Shown here: positions 13,059 to 52,647 of the stretch, in pieces
Layout: every line of letters starts with the position of its first letter
How positions within the stretch are numbered: position 1 is the stretch's first letter
Origin: Candidatus Gracilibacteria bacterium
GTDB taxonomy: Bacteria; Patescibacteriota; Gracilibacteria; BD1-5; UBA2023
Direction: 5' to 3'
Assembly (NCBI GenBank): GCA_028687475.1
Contig: JAQUAB010000001.1
Coordinates: forward strand, 372,001 to 436,000
Length of the DNA: 64,000 nucleotides
The notes under the pieces: model-generated
What the model was told of the DNA's origin: nothing
The model's database searches: none
What the model saw: only the letters and a program-made list of their open reading frames with translations
Made by a program: the position numbers and the translations under genes

Positions 13059-13445
13059 ATGTCAAAATATGAAAACCTAGAAGTATGGAAGAAATCAATA
13101 CTTCTCGTAACCAAAATCTATAAATTCTCTCAAGAAAATTCAAAGCTGAGTCATGACTATTGATTACTTGATCAGATACGAAGGGCTGCTGTAAGTATAC
13201 CAAGTAATATTGCAGAATGAAATGAAAGAGAAACAACAACAGAATTTATTCGATATCTTGTTATTGCTCGATGAAGTACTGCTGAACTCTCAACTCAACT
13301 ATTGATTTGTAAAGATATTGGCTATATTTCTGATGAAGAATATATCATTCTCTCTGAATCGATAATAGAAATTCACAAAATGATAAATGGACTCATAAGT
13401 TTCCAAAAACAAAAACGAGCAACTCTTGTACCCTCTAGCAACTAG
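13059..13445 (+). CDS. four-helix bundle protein (23S rRNA intervening-sequence family)
   Basis: The 128-residue protein has the family hallmarks: YENLEVWKKS at the N-terminus, LLDQIRRAAVSIPSNIAEG in the middle and FIRYLVIARGSTAELSTQL later. Three TGA codons encode Gly, including the glycine of SNIAEG and that of ARGS. The family is found as mobile intervening sequences in 23S rRNA of some bacteria and as free-standing genes; its biochemical role is not settled. The end of the gene lies in a 26-bp tandem duplication that also contains the start of mfd. Confidence 0.9.
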
Positions 13446-13469
13446 CAACTCTTGTACCCTCTAGCAACT
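13419..13469 (+). repeat. 26-bp tandem duplication at the mfd start
   Basis: GCAACTCTTGTACCCTCTAG plus five further bases occurs at 13419-13443 and again at 13445-13469, spaced exactly 26 bp. The first copy contains the end of the four-helix-bundle gene and the second the start of the mfd frame. The related 8-9-mer AGTTGCTAG recurs at 12988-13008 and 17125-17165. Confidence 0.85.
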
Positions 13470-16400
13470 TTCTCTCATTCCACCTGTACTACTGCCCGAC
13501 TCTTCATTTTGAAGAGTCTTTTTCGCGAAGGAGGGAAAAATATCATCATCACCGATAAAGAACAAGATACGAAACTTTTGGAAAACTTCGGAGAAAGCGT
13601 CACAAAGAGGAATTGGAAGAAACTCAACACTATTGCGGATTTTCTCGAAATGACAGAAATCCAGACTGGGAACTTCGTCATCCATCCTCAAATCCTCGAA
13701 ACAATAGGAAATCTCGAATATCTCAGACGGAAGACCCTTCACAAGATCAGTCGTGGAAATACAGAATCCATGGAAAACACGATCGAGACCCTGATAGCAC
13801 TCGGCTATTCTCACAGCGAATACAGTGGTGAACTCGGCACCTACAAGCGGGAATGAAGTATCGTGACACTCACTCATGCACAAAGTGGAAATACGATCCA
13901 TATAGAATGGTTCGATACAGAAATCGATAGCATTATCGAAATCGATGGTGCTGGGAATCGCAGTTATCGTGACTTCATCTGGATCAAGAACGAGAAAATC
14001 GATGAGAATCAGTTCGAGCGAAAAGTCGGGAAAATCAATGAGGAATTATTGTCTCAGATTACTTCTTGTGGATGAGGGTTCGGGGGTAGCAATCATCCCC
14101 AGAAAGAGAATCAGGAGGAATTTTCACAAAATCGAGTTGACACCCCCGAGACCTTTGTTACTTTCGGTCACGAAAGTAAGGGGAATGTATCAGGAAAACT
14201 AGATTCTGAAACAAATTCAGAATGACAGGAAAAGGGATTCTACCCACAAGGGGTATACTGACTATCTCCGAGAATGACAGAAACAAAGAAATGACCACTT
14301 AACCAACCCACTACCCCACTGCCCCACTACCCCACTAACATTATCCTTATCGGTTGTGACTTCCATGGAGACCTCGAGACTCTCAGAAAACATGCAAATA
14401 TCCATTTCACCGATTTTCATCGTGAAGATTCTATCTCACTCGATGTCAGTGTTCCTGATATCCCTCATATCGACGCACTGAAGCATTATATAGAAGAAAA
14501 CTCATCTAAAGCGAATATTTGCTTCTATACAAAAAACGAAAAATCCGTGCAGGATTTTCTCGAATTCCATGCACTTTCTGGATGTCAGATAATTCCAACT
14601 CCAAAAAGCGGACTCGAAAGTTGCGAATATAGTGAGAGCTTTTTTTTGGATCCTGAAGGATGGGGGTTCGGGGGTGGCAATCGTCCCCAGAGAGAGAATT
14701 GAGAAGCAACTTTACAAAATCGAGTTGACACCCCCGAGACCTTTGTTACTTTCGGTCACGAAAGTAAGGAAAGAGTTTCATGAAAAGTACAAATAGTCAT
14801 CACCGACGATATCCTCGGAAATATTTTCGTTCGAACCAGAACCAAGAAATCCCTCGCGAAAAACCTCGATCTTCTCCTCTATGTGAATCCTGGAGATTAT
14901 GTCGTGCACCGAGAACACGGAATTGCACGATTCCATGCAGTCGTGGATAAAACTCTCTGAGATATCCGTCGAGAATATCTCGAACTTCACTATGCTGGAG
15001 GTGACAAGATTTTCGTGCCTCTCACAGAAATCTATCGTGTGAGCAAATATGTGGGAGAACTCGAGCCACAGCTCACGAGTCTCACAGGAAAAGAATGGGA
15101 ACGAACGCTCGAAAAAACAGACGAAGAACTCGAAAAAATCGCAACCGAACTTATCGAGATCGCGAGCAAACGCACTCTTTCTCGTGGAATCACCTTCAAA
15201 AGTCTGCCAACAGAAGAAGAACAATTCCGTTCCCGATTCCCCTATGATTATACTCCTGATCAGCTCGAAGCGATTCATGAGATTTTTCGCGATATGGAAT
15301 CCGAGTATCCGATGGACCGGCTCCTCTCTGGTGATGTTGGCTTCGGAAAGACAGAAGTTGCGATGAATGCCATGTACAAGGCAGTGCTTTCTGGCTACCA
15401 GGTTGCTGTTATTTCTCCCCTGCTCGTTCTCGCAGATGAACACTATGAGACCTTCATGGAACGATTCACCGAATATGGAATCCATGTCGAATGTCTCACT
15501 CGCATGACAAGTACCAGTGAAGAAAAACGAATCCTCGATGGAATGAAAAATGGAAATGTAGATATTGTCGTCGGTACTCACAAACTCCTATCGGAAAATA
15601 TCCGCTGGAAAAAACTCGGACTTCTCGTCATCGATGAAGAACATAAGTTCGGTGTCTCACACAAGGAGACGATCAAGAAGATGCGAGCTAACATCGATAT
15701 TCTTTCTCTCTCAGCTACTCCGATTCCCCGTTCACTCAACCTTGCTCTCTCGGGACTGAAGAAAGTATCCCTTCTCGGAACGGCTCCGAAAAAGAAAAAA
15801 CCCATCGAAACTATCGTGAGCACTTGGACTGAGACGACGATTGCCCATGCGATACAATACGAGCTCGAACGTGGTGGACAGATCATCATCGTCCATAACC
15901 GTATCCGTGGAATGGAACAGATGGAGAAGGAAATTATATCAATAATTCAAAATTCAAAATGAAAGATTCAAAATAATTGATGAAAGGAAGTTCCTGAAGG
16001 ATGGGGGTTCGGGGGTGGCAATCATCCCCAGAGAGAGAATTGAGAAGCAACTTTACAAAATCGAGTTGACACCCCCGAGACCTTTGTTACTTTCGGTCAC
16101 GAAAGTAAGGGAAATGTTTCATGAAAAATACAACCTGGAACAGATTCCTCGACTTCGCTCGGAATGACAAAAAGCCAACCAACTATTATTACCACTCACG
16201 GTCAGATGCACGGAGATGATATAGAAGATCGTATCCATGCCTTCAAAAAGTGAGAATACAATATCCTCCTCACAACCACCATTATCGAAAATGGTGTAAA
16301 CTTTCTCAAGGCAAATACTATAATCATCATCGATCCAGAGGATTTCGGACTCGCACAGCTCCATCAGCTCCGCGGTCGAGTCGGACGCAAGTGAGAACAA

Positions 16401-17132
16401 GGCTACTGTTATCTCATGTATCGCAAGCCAGAACTTGCCGCGATAGAAAAAGAGCGTATTATCACCATTGCGAACAATACACACCTCGGTGCTGGATTCG
16501 AGATTGCGATGCGTGACATGGAGATTCGCGGTGCTGGGGATGTCCTCGGATTCAAGCAGGCTGGGAAGAGTAAAGATGTTGGTCTCACACTCTATTTCCG
16601 TATGCTCGAAGAGAAAATCGCGGAGATCAAGGATGAGAAACAGAAAAAGAAACCCGTGAAAATCGAACTCGAACTTTCCTATGCACTCGACGATTCGCTT
16701 TTCTTGTCAGAAAGTGATAAGCTCAATTTTTTCCGTGAAATAGAAAATATCGAAACCCTCGAAGAACTCGATGCTATGGAAGAAGAAATGATGGAGAAAA
16801 TATGAACTATGAACGATAAAATATGAGATAATTCAGATGCAGGAAAAGAATTCATGTCCCATCACTCATCACTCATCACTCACGTCACGAATCTCTTCCT
16901 CCTTCTCCGAGCACGTCTCACCTTTTCAGAATACGGACTCGAGAGCCTGAAAAAAGTCGGACAGAACTACATTTTCGATTTCTACGATGGCACGAAAGTC
17001 GAGAAAATCAGAGCATTTCTCGACCGATTCGATACCAAAAATCGTATGACTCTCCTTTCTGTCAAAAAAATCCGCACCGAAGTGCGGTATTGGAAAACGG
17101 TTCAAGAATTCCTCGAAGAACTAGTTGGTTGA
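13452..17132 (+). CDS. mfd: transcription-repair coupling factor Mfd with repeat-derived insertions
   Basis: Mfd removes RNA polymerase stalled at lesions and recruits UvrA. The frame is open over 1226 residues only if TGA is Gly. It contains a UvrB-homology N-terminal part ([16 protein letters not shown]), the RNAP-interaction region ([14 protein letters not shown] ... [10 protein letters not shown]), Walker A GDVGFGKT (about 627-634), DEEH (about 728), [21 protein letters not shown] and a C-terminal TRCF domain. Three repeat elements are fused in frame: 14067-14181 with following hairpin repeats and a Pro-Thr linker up to about 14325, 14654-14769, and 15945-16170. They fall at domain linkers or loops: before the D3-like region, before the RNAP-interaction domain, and between IIVHNRI...IISII and THGQM in the helicase second lobe. 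All helicase motifs survive, so the protein is probably functional. No ATG exists near the start; TTG 13452 follows the previous stop closely and is uncertain. The N-terminal repair domain is shorter than usual. Confidence 0.9.
14067..14181 (+). repeat. in-frame palindromic element, copy 1 (mfd)
   Basis: The most diverged of the three mfd copies: about eleven substitutions in the first 60 nt relative to copies 2-4 and none in the last 50. The translation reads GFGGSNHPQ ... [17 protein letters not shown] in the mfd frame. Outer stem TCGGGGGT / ACCCCCGA and inner hairpin TTACTTTCG-GTCA-CGAAAGTAA are intact. Confidence 0.9.
14202..14280 (+). repeat. short GATT...AATGACA hairpin repeats inside mfd
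   Basis: Units GATTCTGAAACAAATTCAGA followed by ATGACAGG (14202-14229) and a second ending CTCCGAGAATGACAG (to 14280) extend insertion 1. They belong to a dispersed family with variable stem and conserved flanks, seen between genes at 17388-17472, 41975-42105 and 46481-46507. Confidence 0.75.
14654..14769 (+). repeat. in-frame palindromic element, copy 2 (mfd)
   Basis: 116 bp, nearly identical to copies 3 and 4. Outer stem TCGGGGGTG (14668-14676) pairs with CACCCCCGA (14729-14737); inner hairpin TTACTTTCG (14746-14754), loop GTCA, CGAAAGTAA (14759-14767). In the mfd frame it encodes [20 protein letters not shown] then [18 protein letters not shown], with one Gly from TGA. Confidence 0.93.
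15945..15974 (+). repeat. A+T-rich in-frame repeat (mfd copy)
   Basis: Thirty bp translated as IQNSKGKIQN inside mfd, with TGA as the central Gly. A near-identical 30-mer lies in frame at 40599-40628 and an intergenic inverted copy at 38512-38541. Confidence 0.85.
15995..16110 (+). repeat. in-frame palindromic element, copy 3 (mfd)
   Basis: 116 bp, one apparent substitution from copy 2 (CAT for CGT, His for Arg), in the same frame relative to mfd. Followed at 16143-16170 by a GATT...AATGACA hairpin unit, also in frame. Confidence 0.93.
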
Positions 17133-17187
17133 TAGTTGCTAGAACCTTAGTTACTAGTTGCTAGAAAAAATTGGAAACACAACGCTC

Positions 17188-17475
17188 CTGGAGGATGGGG
17201 GTTCGGGGGTGATTAAAAACAGTGAAATGGGGATTGCAAAGAAAATGCAAAGATGCAATGTTTCTGAAGGATGGGGGTTCGGGGGTGGCAATCGTCCCCA
17301 GAGAGAGAATTGAGAAGCAACTTTACAAAATCGAGTTGACACCCCCGAGACCTTTGTTACTTTCGGTCACGAAAGTAAGGAATTGTATTCCTGAACCAGT
17401 CGGAATGATAGGAACAGAGGGATTCTCTCCGAGAATGACAGGAAAAACTGGATCTTCGCTTGCGATGACAGGAAC
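17188..17475 (+). repeat. intergenic repeat cluster with element copy 4
   Basis: The 478-bp gap between mfd and the cyclase gene (17133-17610) holds no gene. It contains a truncated element start (17188-17211), a complete 116-bp copy (17265-17380), and GATT...AATGACA hairpins at 17388-17472. AGTTGCTAG repeats and further short inverted repeats fill the remainder. Confidence 0.9.
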
Positions 17476-39499: not shown

Positions 39500-40282
39500 A
39501 TGTATAAAATATTACTCATTCTCGCAGTTATTTTTTTCTGATTCATGAGCCATTTTAGTATGGCAGACTCTCTCCAGTCAGGTTCTACTATCATGGCTGG
39601 GACAGGGATTTCTCCTGAGAAATCTGATACGAAATCAATCACTGGACAAATAACGAAAATGCCATCTTTTGGCATCATTCACAAATGATATGATGTACTT
39701 CCCTTCTATGAAGATTCGAGTATTTTTCGTTTTGTCAGCCGAGACGTTCCGCTCAATGAGAAAAGTTATGAACCAGATGATCTCGTTCCCATCAACAATG
39801 AACATATCAACATGGCTGGTCGAAGTGGACTCAAAATGCGGAAGGAAGCACGCGACTCACTCTGGATTATGGCAGCAGATTTCGAGAAAAAGTTCGGCGT
39901 TCCCCTCACAGTCATCAGTACGTACCGAAGTGCCGCCTACCAACAATGGATGTGGGATCTCGGAAAGTGTACTGACTCCCTATGTGCTCCTTCTGGATAC
40001 AGTGAACACCAACTCGGACTCGCGATGGATGTATTCGATGCTACGACAGAACGTGACTATGAAGCGAATCAGAATTATCGACGGTATATCGCTTGGTTCA
40101 AGGAAAATGCTCAAAGATATGGATGGACGCAGAGTTATCAAAAAGGTGAAGCCATCGACACTTATGAAGTCGAGCCTTGGCATTGGAGATATGTCGGTGT
40201 CGATATGGCAACCAAGCTCCGGAATCTCGGATGGACCTATACAGAATATGTCCGATTCCAACAAATCATCGCGCGGAGATAA
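39500..40282 (+). CDS. D-alanyl-D-alanine carboxypeptidase, VanY type (M15B)
   Basis: Trims the terminal D-Ala of peptidoglycan stem peptides. An N-terminal helix (ILLILAVIFFGFM) anchors or exports it. The catalytic domain has STYRSAAYQ, SGYSEHQLGLAMDV (zinc ligands His170 and Asp177) and EPWHWRY with the catalytic Glu and third zinc His. 260 residues. Two TGA codons encode Gly. It starts 3 bp after corA, so the two are likely co-transcribed, and a terminator follows. Confidence 0.93.
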
Positions 40283-40283
40283 G

Positions 40284-40310
40284 AAACCCTCTCAGAGGGT
40301 TTTCTTTTTT
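40284..40310 (+). terminator. intrinsic terminator of corA-vanY
   Basis: AAACCCTC / GAGGGTTT stem with a 3-nt loop and a T-rich tail immediately after the VanY stop. Confidence 0.85.
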
Positions 40311-40343
40311 GTCATTTTTCATTTTTTCCCTATACTCCACCGC

Positions 40344-41753
40344 ATGAACAACTCATCTACTCATCTCTACGCCTTCACTCTCGGTCGCGAGTGGAAGCTT
40401 TCTCTTGCGGAACTTTTTGCTGTTTTCGGTGCAGACGCATATCGAATCCATACTGAGACAATTGCGATTTTCCAGATCCATGGCTATAGCGATGAACAGC
40501 TCGCGAAAAAATTTCTCACTATCGGAGGTTCTATCCGTATCATCAAGATTCTCGGAGAAACGGATACAAAACGATTCCCGACTGATGTCATTCATGAAAT
40601 TCAAAGTTCAAAATGAAAGATTCAAAATTCAGGTGGCAAAGTGACTTTCGCTCTCGGAAGCTATGGTATCGATTTCCCTGTATCGAATATCGGACTCCGC
40701 ATCAAGAAAACGCTTCAAGAAAGAGGCTTTTCTGCACGTCTCGTCAATATCGAGAACAAGAATATCGTCAGTGCGGTATTCAAACGAGAAAAACTCGGAA
40801 AATCTCAGACAGAATACAACCTTATTCAGACACCCGCAGGAGAAGAATTCGGCGTAACTATTGCCTGTCAGGATATCGATGCATATGCGAACCGTGATAC
40901 AGGAAAGTCTCGCGATATGATAGTCGGGATGATGCCTCCGAAACTCGTACAAATGATGATCAATCTTGCACGATCAGTATCAGAGAAATCGCTCAAAAAC
41001 GAGAAATTCGAGGCAAGAAAAAATCTTTGAAAGGAGTTTACATCCATAGTAAATGACTGAAAAGATTTTTCTCATAACGAAGAAGTTCGACGTTTTTCAG
41101 AGATTTCTCTCTATGATCCATTCTGTGGACTCGGAACAACCCTCATCGAAGCCGCGAATATGGGAATCACAGAAGTCTATGGAAGTGATATCTCTGCGGA
41201 AATGGTTCGTGCAAGTACTGATAGTCTCGAGGAATTCATCAAGACCGAGAAAATGTGGCAGGAACGCATCCGTGCCGTATGAGGAACGCCGAATAAGGAT
41301 TTTTCTGATTTCCGAAGTTCCATAGTCCAGCTCGATGCACGGAAAGTGAAAGATGCAGCAGAAAAACTCGGAACCATCGATTTCCACCGACTCAATCTCG
41401 CTATCGTGAGTGAAGGATTCCTCGGAGAGATTATGTCTCCTCGCGATATCGGACTCGAGAAAGTACAAGCAGAACGCAAGAAACTCGCTTCTATGTATTC
41501 AGATTTCTTCCGATGACTCGCTGATGCGAATTTCCGCGGTAGTATCGTCATGAGCTTCCCATTCTGGAATATCCATGGTACGTATTCGTATTTCGGTGAG
41601 ATCTACGAAGTCATCGAGAAAAATGGATTCGAGGTTGTCTCACTCCTTCCATGGGAAATGAAACTCAACACGAGCAAAGGTAGTCTTCTCTATCGTCGTG
41701 AGAATCAGACGGTTGGACGTGAAATCGTGAAAATCGTGAAAAAATCAAAATAA
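40344..41753 (+). CDS. Trm11-like tRNA/RNA methyltransferase (469 aa)
   Basis: The SAM-binding motif YDPFCGLGTTLIEAA and a preceding RDTGKSRDMIVGMMPPKLVQ segment match COG1041 (Trm11/TrmG10 family), which makes N2-methylguanosine in tRNA. The N-terminal 160 residues are THUMP-like in position. At about residues 86-95 an A+T-rich repeat-derived insert (IQSSKGKIQN) is read in frame through a TGA. The usual catalytic NPPY is not obvious; the motif region reads FHRLNLAIVSEGFLGE. Confidence in the superfamily is high, in the exact substrate modest. ATG 40344. Confidence 0.82.
40599..40628 (+). repeat. A+T-rich in-frame repeat (methyltransferase copy)
   Basis: Thirty bp translated as IQSSKGKIQN, one residue different from the mfd copy and in the same frame relative to the repeat, including the TGA glycine. 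Confidence 0.85.
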
Positions 41754-46103: not shown

Positions 46104-46233
46104 AAAATCTTGCCAAAACAGAAAAATCTCTATAATGAATCCATCTCCTTACAACCCTAGAAAATGGTCGCACAACTTGGTACGAGCACATCAACTCTTT
46201 TCCCGACGATTTCGTAAGGCTTTTTTAATATCC

Positions 46234-46262
46234 AAAATCCTCGCGAAATGCGGGGATTTTTT
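46234..46262 (+). terminator. intrinsic terminator
   Basis: AAAATCCTCGC / GCGGGGATTTT stem with a 5-nt loop and T6, about 130 bp after the Tat-protein gene. Confidence 0.75.
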
Positions 46263-46278
46263 AAAAGAATGATGTTTA

Positions 46279-46515
46279 TTCCTGATTTTGCTTCTTTATT
46301 TTTGTGAGTTTTGACTTTCTGTCGATGAAGTTTTCTTCGAAAATTGCAACTGTTTCTTAGTCTTGCAATTTTAGAAAACAAGTCGGAAACAGAATGCAAA
46401 ACGAACAAACCGAAAAGAAGAAGCTTTTGGTACTTTTCACTTATGAAAAGTACACTGGAAGTTTTGTGAAAGAAATCCTGGATTCTTCGCTTTGCTCAGA
46501 ATGACAGAAACAATA
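46279..46515 (+). repeat. intergenic repeat region with a solo element hairpin
   Basis: The 432-bp gap 46104-46535 has no gene I can support. From 46286 it shares its first 40 or so bases with 41766. It then has a 10-bp perfect hairpin AAAATTGCAA / TTGCAATTTT (46340-46372), the hairpin GTACTTTTCA-CTTA-TGAAAAGTAC (46430-46453), which matches the prmC element, and a GATT...AATGACAG unit (46481-46507). Confidence 0.8.
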
Positions 46516-46535
46516 AATATCTTAATTTTATCCCT

Positions 46536-46982
46536 ATGCGTCAACCAGAATTCTATGCCGCCGTGTTCGGCATCATTCGCAACAATGAAGGGAAAGTCCT
46601 AACCATAAAAAGAAAGAATACTGGATATTCGGATGGATACTACTGACTCCCTGCTGGACATATCGAGTGAATCGAAACTCCAACCGCTTCACTTCGGAGA
46701 GAAATCCTCGAAGAAGTCGGACTCGATGTGGAAGAAAAAGATATGAAATTCCTCATATCTGGACATCGCATCAGTCCTCAATCAGATGGCTCCAATCGTG
46801 TGTATTTTGATTTCTATTATGAAATTCTCCGGTATTCTGGAACTCCTATCAATGGCGAACCAGAAAAATCGGAATGAACCTACTGGATCAACTGGAAACA
46901 AGAAACAAAAATACAATTCCGCGAATATCTCGAACAAATAGAACTCGGAAATACCTACTTCGAAATCGATTATCGTCTCTAA
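46536..46982 (+). CDS. Nudix hydrolase (148 aa)
   Basis: Hydrolyses nucleoside diphosphate derivatives. The Nudix box G-x5-E-x7-R-E-U-x-E-E-x-G-U is complete: GHIEGIETPTASLRREILEE then VGL. The Gly of HIEG is a TGA. Upstream YGLPAGH is the usual lead-in. It is followed after 2 bp by the 126-aa gene. Confidence 0.92.
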
Positions 46983-51732: not shown

Positions 51733-51763
51733 TTCTCCTTGCAAAATCCTGATAAAACTATAC

Positions 51764-51792
51764 AAACGAATCATTCAACTGATTCGTTTTTT
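51764..51792 (+). terminator. intrinsic terminator directly before prmC
   Basis: Perfect 10-bp stem AAACGAATCA / TGATTCGTTT, 6-nt loop, T6. It ends at the ATG of prmC (51793). Confidence 0.8.
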
Positions 51793-52647
51793 ATGACTCC
51801 TCTATTTCCAGAAAATTATCCTGAAGAATACAAAACGGGGAAAGTGAATTTCTTTGGTCGAGATTTCGTCGTGACTCCTGATGTTCTGATTCCGAGGCTT
51901 GAGACCGAGTGACTCGTTCGTCGAGCAAGACAACTCCTACAATGAACGTACAAAAAACAGATGATAGCAACTGATGGGGAGTCTGAGGGGTGGAAACTGT
52001 TTGAGTCTGATGATAGCAAGAAACCGCTGAGCGAAGCGAACGAGTTTTTTCACCCCTCAGAACCTTTTGGTACTTTTCAGTTATGAAAAGTACATGCTAT
52101 CCCCAAAAACCAAAAACTAATTATCGTCGACATTGGTTGTGGATCAGGTATCATCGGAACTTCTGTTGCAGATCTTGCCGACGAAGTCATATTTCTCGAT
52201 ATTTCCCCTGCAGCACTTTGAATCGCAGAGAAAAATTTCCGCACCCATTTTCCAGACAAAAAAGCACAATTCATTGTCTCTGATTTGCTCGAGAATCTTC
52301 CTGATAGCATCAAAAATTCAGAATCAAAAGTCTTATTTCTCACCAATCTTCCCTATATCAAGGATGAAGACTGGATACATATGAGCGAAGATACGGTTCA
52401 TGAGCCAAAACTCGCACTCTTCGGTGGAGAAAAAACGGGTTTCGAACTGTATGAACGCCTCTTCGAGCAGCTTTCTCACCTCCTCGCCAACCAACTATCC
52501 AACTATCCAACTATCCAACTGTTATTCGAATTCGGATTCGACCAACGTGAAGTTGCAGAATCAGTCATGCAACAATATCCGAACTGGAATTATGAGTTTT
52601 TCGCTGACTATGCAGGCATCGAGCGATTCGGAGAAATCATATTCTAA
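51793..52647 (+). CDS. prmC: release factor glutamine methyltransferase PrmC with repeat insertion
   Basis: Methylates the Gln of the RF GGQ motif; in this genome the substrate is RF1. 284 residues. [18 protein letters not shown] is the conserved substrate-contact region; [14 protein letters not shown] is SAM motif I; NLPY (in [13 protein letters not shown]) is the catalytic NPPY-type motif. Between LLQGTYKK and [10 protein letters not shown] a roughly 45-residue insert (about residues 56-101) is made by a diverged member of the mfd element family. A tandem CCAACTAT repeat further on encodes [10 protein letters not shown]. Confidence 0.92.
51982..52094 (+). repeat. in-frame palindromic element, diverged copy in prmC
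   Basis: Outer stem CTGAGGGGTG (51983-51992) pairs perfectly with CACCCCTCAG (52051-52060). The inner hairpin is GTACTTTTCA (52070-52079), loop GTTA, TGAAAAGTAC (52084-52093). The translation [15 protein letters not shown] ... [14 protein letters not shown] is aligned in frame with the mfd copies (EGW at the start, [12 protein letters not shown] at the end). Confidence 0.88.

Follow-up and report, generated by a model that had tools for sequence, protein, structure and literature searches.

The closest described counterparts of the repeat reported here are the Rickettsia palindromic elements (RPEs). RPEs measure 105–146 bp and are described as in-frame fusions in 19 reading frames of Rickettsia, the Gmk among them being active (PMC2229807), nearly half of the 44 RPEs of R. 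conorii lie within ORFs (PMC10969869), and the RPE insertions of R. japonica are solvent-exposed and share their locus among orthologues, RPE-4, RPE-6 and RPE-7 being rich in ATGAC (PMC3767692). The element studied here is similar: it is a repeat of the same size class (about 100–150 bp), present in multiple copies both between genes and in frame inside conserved genes, some orthologues carry insertions at the same locus, and ATGAC is found in the GAATGACA repeats that adjoin it. Its inserts stand at short connections of solved homologues, which we take to be loops, and RPE inserts are described as solvent-exposed. Compared by description, RPEs are long stem-loops with terminal inverted repeats and the element consists of two separate hairpins; its host belongs to a different phylum and reads UGA as Gly, and TGA is present in 16 of the 17 frames used.

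Other systems are related more loosely. Coding MITEs (ERIC/RU-1, YPAL/RU-2 and the 107-bp element of Neisseria) are likewise small non-autonomous repeats with open frames and gene fusions (PMC2229807). For the element, by contrast, neither terminal inverted repeats nor a duplicated target nor a parent IS is evident, and it is inserted within conserved enzymes. REP palindromes are linked to RAYT (Y1) transposases. They too are short palindromic repeats (PMC3733652). The element differs from REP/RAYT systems in that no PF01797 protein was found in the source genome, and it is longer, bipartite and has genic copies. Its trailing TGGATTCC..GGAATGACAG repeats presumably resemble the dRS3/NIME-like intergenic mosaics of Neisseria, from which they differ in being read also inside genes. 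Finally, palindromic DNA within protein genes is described for the bypassing palindromes of Magnusiomyces mitochondria and the coding palindromes of Nematomorpha (PMC6649704); there the Magnusiomyces bypassed elements are untranslated and the nematomorph palindromes are perfect, mitochondrial inverted repeats, unlike the element, which is probably translated.

Results

Three in-frame copies of the element within mfd

The window, a stretch of 64,000 nucleotides, comes from a genome of 1.06 Mb in five contigs (G000) in which TGA is read as Gly. Its mfd gene, which encodes the transcription-repair coupling factor (13446..17135, + strand; under table 25 the frame is open over 13446–17132 and its stop reaches 17135), has 18 TGA codons and matches the Pfam families UvrB_inter, CarD_TRCF_RID, DEAD, Helicase_C and TRCF. 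The preliminary description had reported three in-frame copies of the element in this gene and a fourth between genes, and all four are present: copy 1 at 14066..14181 (site 1), copy 2 at 14654..14769 (site 2) and copy 3 at 15995..16110 (site 3) are read in the mfd frame, and the intergenic copy lies at 17265..17380, all on the + strand. In a DNA search these four, with one copy in dnaX and one in rnr, made up the six close copies of the 116-nt element in G000. A 26-nt fragment of its 5' end (96%) is also found between genes, at 17186..17211 (+).

With mfd copy 2 as the reference of a 142-nt repeat family (D1), the other mfd copies are 82% and 96% identical to it and the intergenic copy 90%; the 96% between copies 2 and 3 holds over 142 nt, flanks included. 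Over 119 nt the intergenic copy and mfd copy 2 are 100% identical, which suggests recent copying. Inserts 1 and 3 are composites in which additional repeats are also read in frame. Copy 1 is followed by GAATGACA-type repeats and a CCCACTACC minisatellite (approximately 14182..14340, +), a TTCAAAATTCAAAA-type repeat stands ahead of copy 3 (approximately 15944..15994, +), and the rest of insert 3 (approximately 16111..16190, +) includes a GAATGACA repeat read as ..LGMTK...

The preliminary description had placed the inserts outside the helicase motifs. Insert 3 does lie between the conserved motifs, but it splits the Helicase_C domain, the Pfam match to which begins at profile position 39, directly after the insert. 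Most of 17 aligned Mfd relatives are short at all three sites: site 1 has 6–10 residues in 16 of them vs 96 in G000, site 2 has 6–22 residues in 16 vs 57, and site 3 has 8–16 residues in 15 vs 83. The remaining relatives have their own inserts (G019 at sites 1 and 3, G011 at site 2, G021 at site 3). In the solved homologue 6x26, residues 834–838 form the short connection that corresponds to residues 833–912 of the G000 protein.

Other repeats were observed in and around these genes. In G011, which is from a further genus, site 2 of mfd (L115) holds 65 residues, including FLDSHFRGNDK, vs 6–22, another repeat-like in-frame insert. Palindromic repeats of the GAATGACA type adjoin the element and are read in the same ORFs at 14219–14279 and 16161–16169 of the window and at L006, L005, L147 and L102; all three registers are used (..GMTK.., ..QEGQ.., ..GNDG..), and the EGQ register holds a TGA, a stop in the standard code. 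At 40621–40630 the ORF 39654–41750 contains an in-frame TTCAAAATTCAAAA-type repeat like that of mfd insert 3, with the reading QSSKGKIQNSGGK. The ORF just upstream of mfd (13059–13445) resembles, we presume, a four-helix-bundle (S23-type) protein.

Structure and spread of the element

The unit had been described as a single palindrome. Folding and an alignment of 20 copies from G000 and related genomes instead showed two hairpins per unit. Stem I, in G000 GGTTCGGGGGTG..CACCCCCGAGACC, encloses a variable loop and is strongly covarying, with changes on both sides in nine of 19 pairs. Hairpin II (TTACTTTYGGTCACRAAAGTAA) is 99.4% paired in the 20-copy alignment; in the window it occupies 14158..14179 in copy 1 (TTACTTTCGGTCACGAAAGTAA), 14746..14767 in copy 2, 16087..16108 in copy 3 and 17357..17378 in the intergenic copy (all +). 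For the whole structure, 55 cells were changed on both sides, vs a mean of 15.8 after shuffling (none of 500 shuffles was as high) and 2–19 in controls with slid partners. No stem joins the two ends of the element, and an RPE-type single long stem-loop with terminal inverted repeats was not found.

A covariance model of the element (R1), used for register-blind searches, matched 40 of 77 genomes of the order and 47 of 288 genomes drawn from the class, the source genome being included in both counts. Presence is patchy across order and class, with at most 25 matches per genome. G000 itself has 16 matches at E up to 1, eight of them genic and eight not counted as genic, and the diverged copies in hemW, prmC and recG were added in this way. 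An exact-pattern scan for hairpin II through the public genomes of 84,980 species returned 67 stretches, 44 of them titled Gracilibacteria (one as Altimarinus) and the other 23 Magasanikbacteria, Levybacteria, Daviesbacteria, Buchananbacteria, Saccharibacteria and Clostridia-type bacteria; none bore a Rickettsia or Wolbachia title, within the reach of an exact pattern that diverged forms would escape. None of 25 of these loci (the 23 and two from Gracilibacteria) was inside an ORF with at least 40 codons on each side, four of them having the hairpin within ~110 nt of the end of the stretch, where both sides cannot be judged. Among 14 loci scanned with Rfam, the ten matches listed all fell short of their gathering scores, and phage and plasmid records gave no match. 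The hairpin string was not found in the CC-licensed PMC papers, and among the papers listed from that collection none reported palindromic or in-frame repeats of this kind in Gracilibacteria, CPR or Patescibacteria.

Some arrangements of the repeat were seen in passing. Several copies of a related two-hairpin repeat lie outside long open frames on two contigs of the Clostridia genome RGIG3010 (L313, L319, L327, L340). In G039, G048 and G062, copies form closely spaced opposite-strand pairs (L227, L229, L232, L238, L242, L243, L244), and four short variants (L266, L269, L159, L164) end 12–24 nt ahead of a long same-strand open frame (stop to stop), in the manner of a leader.

Copies in other housekeeping genes and genomes

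Seventeen genic copies were counted: eight in G000, four in G019, two in G023 and one each in G021, G002 and G013. Those of G000 are in mfd (three), dnaX (L006), rnr (L005; an RNB-family RNase gene), a HemW-like radical-SAM gene, prmC and recG. G019 has copies in mutY, miaA and dnaX and a diverged one in mfd, G021 has a copy in mfd, G002 in hemW and G023 in hemW and dnaX; G013 has a remnant in dnaX which consists of the 3' module only, with the register kept. Gene names come from Pfam hits and reading, and hemW, mutY and miaA are the presumed names for Radical_SAM, HhH-GPD and IPPT hits; in the host genes the copies are flanked by the expected Pfam domains. Most genic copies are 104–154 nt long. 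Fifteen were found by the register-blind search. Those in G019 mfd (R1 E about 1) and G013 dnaX (not a listed R1 match) were found by eye in protein alignments and are biased as evidence on the register because they were recognised from the peptide. Among the 142 listed R1 matches, 120 were classified, together with a weak match, L165; the rest were duplicates of overlapping loci, weak opposite-strand matches or incomplete. In G019 seven of 13 matches were examined, and in G013 six of 11.

Two of these loci are in the window. The prmC gene, for a HemK-type N5-glutamine methyltransferase (51733..52647, +), carries its diverged copy in frame at 51968..52095 (+; R1). L165 is a weak partial match at 46372..46455 (+; E 0.36 genome-wide) in another register, in the 5' part of an open frame (46218–46979) which has a NUDIX domain further on; the weak copy is apparently upstream of the NUDIX start, and it would break the single-register rule described below if that start lies upstream of the copy.

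Twelve of the 16 G000 copies lie in frames with at least 40 codons on both sides, and only eight were counted as genic; L165 was not, nor were L160 (antisense, 533 aa), L162 and L164, for which no Pfam hit was obtained in the frames tested, and neither was L182 of G019 (329 aa, in register), for the frame of which there was no Pfam hit. Around the copies of this clade that lie outside long frames, inspection of the neighbouring open frames revealed no split gene. The copies did not prove to be mostly out of frame or solely intergenic, eight of the 16 G000 copies being genic and in frame. The likeness to RPEs proposed in the preliminary description is supported, with six genes of G000 and five related genomes holding same-register copies and most homologues being short at the sites concerned.

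Comparison with homologues bears on how these copies arose. Extra residues were found at short connections in RNase R (337–391 of G000 vs 374–385 of 8cdu), MiaA (99–191 of G019 vs 79–93 of 2qgn) and PrmC (70–130 of G000 vs 118–124 of 1sg9), and residues 500–550 of G000 RecG have no counterpart in 1gm5, the aligned parts of which meet at residues 592–598; these positions are presumably loops of the solved homologues. For RNase R, nine of ten relatives were matched and eight aligned, seven being short at the site and G019 having another repeat-like insert. For DnaX, nine of ten relatives were matched; the linker contains the element in G019 and G023 and its remnant in G013, and none was recognised in the other six. 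At the sites in mfd, rnr, recG, miaA, prmC, dnaX and hemW the insert is missing from most homologues and, judged by these alignments, the genic copies are insertions. Other repeat-like sequence occupies these loops at mfd site 1 and in rnr of G019, at mfd site 2 of G011 and in hemW of G013, and the insertion sites look like tolerant positions. AlphaFold2 models of the Mfd helicase part and of PrmC, made from single sequences, had mean pLDDT values of 36 and 39 and are unusable as evidence.

Further inserts were observed in the same genes. RecG of G000 (L158) has two more repeat-like in-frame inserts, at about residues 241–281 and 378–420, both with KSGIINLES and both absent from 1gm5. The hemW gene of G000 (L156) holds a KNPPYPPLQRGF stretch and that of G013 (L398) a VIARHEAIQ stretch, the latter aligning at the position of the element in G000 hemW; we take both stretches to be translations of other widespread repeats. 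Contigs C92 and C30 of G023 (L389, L395) encode two HemW-like proteins, 71% identical over 360 aligned residues, one with the insert and one without, which are either paralogues or the product of a mixed bin.

A single register, nearly always opened by TGA

All 17 genic copies lie on the sense strand, and in all 17 the 3' module is read in one register (..ETF-TFG.., with GGTIFATKS among the readings). The claim that the element is read in one frame stands for the three mfd copies and for the 3' module, but not for the 5' half: this is read as GFGG.N in five copies of one subfamily (mfd, dnaX and rnr of G000) and otherwise in hemW, mutY, miaA, prmC and recG, without a constant register. Under table 25, two to six of the six frames are open in each of 16 copies. 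After allowing for six registers, the probability of one common register is 2.7e-6 for 11 presumed independent events, or 3.3e-5 when mfd is counted once; the calculation takes open frames as equally likely, which peptide selection would alter, and orthologous sites were merged by judgement. The used frame was free of TAA and TAG and in frame in 16 of 16 copies tested, and it was the most hydrophilic open frame in 13 of the 16, the exceptions being hemW-a, mutY and miaA.

The used frame holds TGA, and is closed in table 11, in 16 of the 17 genic copies (16 of 16 of those tested), the recognisable part of the G013 dnaX remnant being free of TGA. Reading of the insert thus nearly always depends on UGA being glycine. 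Among the other 43 open frames, 23 have TGA, vs 16 of 16 used frames (Fisher p 4e-4, a value that is only indicative because the copies are related).

The altered code is not sufficient, since no genic copy was found in the order's other genera; that they share the code is taken, within the order, from the TGA codons that most of their mfd frames contain. Of 123 copies examined in 25 genomes that belong neither to the genus of G000 nor to genus g3, not one was inside a recognisable gene (99 from 15 genomes, 21 from eight, and three from G006 and G014). The difference from the 15 genic matches among 43 examined in G000, G002, G013, G019, G021 and G023 gave p 2e-10 in a Fisher test, from which G019 mfd and G013 dnaX were left out. 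Four of the 99 copies (three in G012, one in G064) are in frames with at least 40 codons on both sides, none with a Pfam hit. Also not counted as genic were a copy upstream of the apparent start of a 553-aa frame with SLH domains in G081 (L352), one near the 5' end of an antisense frame in G006 with a PRA-PH domain far downstream (L249), and another in the same genome within a 191-aa frame that gave no Pfam hit (L257). In G024 (L185) a single 3' module was seen near the 5' end of a 234-aa frame.

Discussion

We consider it likely that the element is a non-autonomous two-hairpin repeat which is translated as a spacer in protein loops and is filtered by selection on the host gene. The repeat would insert at loops of conserved proteins, and the insert would then be translated as a hydrophilic, Gly-containing spacer of about 35–50 residues. 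Copies that are out of frame, that lie in a frame closed by TAA or TAG, or that give a hydrophobic peptide would be lost by selection on the host gene; the surviving copies would be those in one register, usually open only through UGA as glycine. The peptides are presumably made and harmless, and the register was probably fixed by selection and not by directed insertion. Because inspection of copies by eye gave no clear target-site duplication and no PF01797 (Y1; RAYT mobiliser) protein was found in G000 (96% complete; 23 of 79 genomes searched have matches), we infer from the pattern of gain and loss and from the near-identical copies that the element is, or formerly was, mobile.

It is possible, though we doubt it, that most genic copies go back to old insertion events and were passed on vertically or by gene conversion, without ongoing insertion. 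The identity of mfd copies 2 and 3 extends into their flanks, dnaX is occupied in G000, G019 and G023 with a remnant in G013, and one hemW site is common to G002 and G023, as this reading would have it. Against it, the dnaX copies of G000, G019 and G023 are of unlike hairpin II types, hemW has two distinct insertion sites, and G021 has an insert at mfd site 3 that its sister G002, like G013 and G023, lacks. On the Mfd tree, with G000, G019 and G021 filled, site 3 needs three changes, whether gains or losses; a single gain with two losses would do.

The preliminary description had favoured an element adapted to be translated. That the element, as a selfish or a useful module, is itself selected to encode a tolerated peptide, its coding register being maintained, now appears unlikely. 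Such maintenance would account for the one register of 17 of 17 genic copies across diverged subfamilies, when the GAATGACA-type repeats of the same ORFs use all three; for the insert in G019 mfd, where hairpin II looks decayed by eye and the frame is kept; and for the G013 dnaX remnant, reduced to a 3' module that is still in register. However, a single register is no proof of adaptation, because selection against stops and hydrophobic peptides would leave the same pattern and explains much of the register, and the absence of all 123 copies of the 25 other genomes from recognisable genes leaves the earlier claim unsupported.

A functional structured RNA, either regulatory or a transcribed small RNA, with the genic copies as by-products, is less probable again. 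The covarying stem I, a hairpin II that is very conserved across the order, and the presence of the hairpin motif in other CPR and in Clostridia would all be expected of one; yet a mobile hairpin would covary too, and the patchy distribution (40 of 77 and 47 of 288 genomes, with no more than 25 matches in any) speaks against it. Still more improbable, to a degree that we set it aside, is a protein freed of the inserts by intron-like removal from the RNA or by ribosomal bypassing. Stable hairpins do lie within the coding regions, and palindromic bypassed elements are described for yeast mitochondria (PMC6649704), but splicing or bypassing would not require the frame, which all 11 presumed events keep (on length alone a chance of (1/3)^11 = 6e-6), with neither TAA nor TAG in the used frame of the 16 copies tested, and no Rfam family reached its threshold at the 14 loci. 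Chimeric assembly or pseudogenes are hardly credible, since the same pattern recurs in six genomes with intact housekeeping reading frames, even though the titles of the family's named genomes mark them as metagenome assemblies and G023 has two different hemW genes.

A translated spacer repeat, filtered by selection on its host genes, is the explanation that we retain as likely. In the best reading of the comparison, the element would work like an RPE but belong to a different-looking family in a UGA-Gly lineage, the two being set apart by their descriptions. More tentatively, and with less confidence than doubt, we suggest that the reassignment of UGA from stop to glycine may have opened a class of hairpin repeats to translation, letting otherwise intergenic repeats colonise the interiors of housekeeping genes. 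If this were true, a change of the genetic code would have given mobile DNA a new habitat and proteins a source of new segments.

Rickettsia has been the main setting for reports of palindromic repeats that invade housekeeping genes in frame. In Patescibacteria, an unrelated-looking element, read in one register and nearly always by way of TGA, would be an independent replicate of that phenomenon, and with filled and empty orthologues in neighbouring genera the respective parts of tolerance, adaptation of the element and the altered code become testable.
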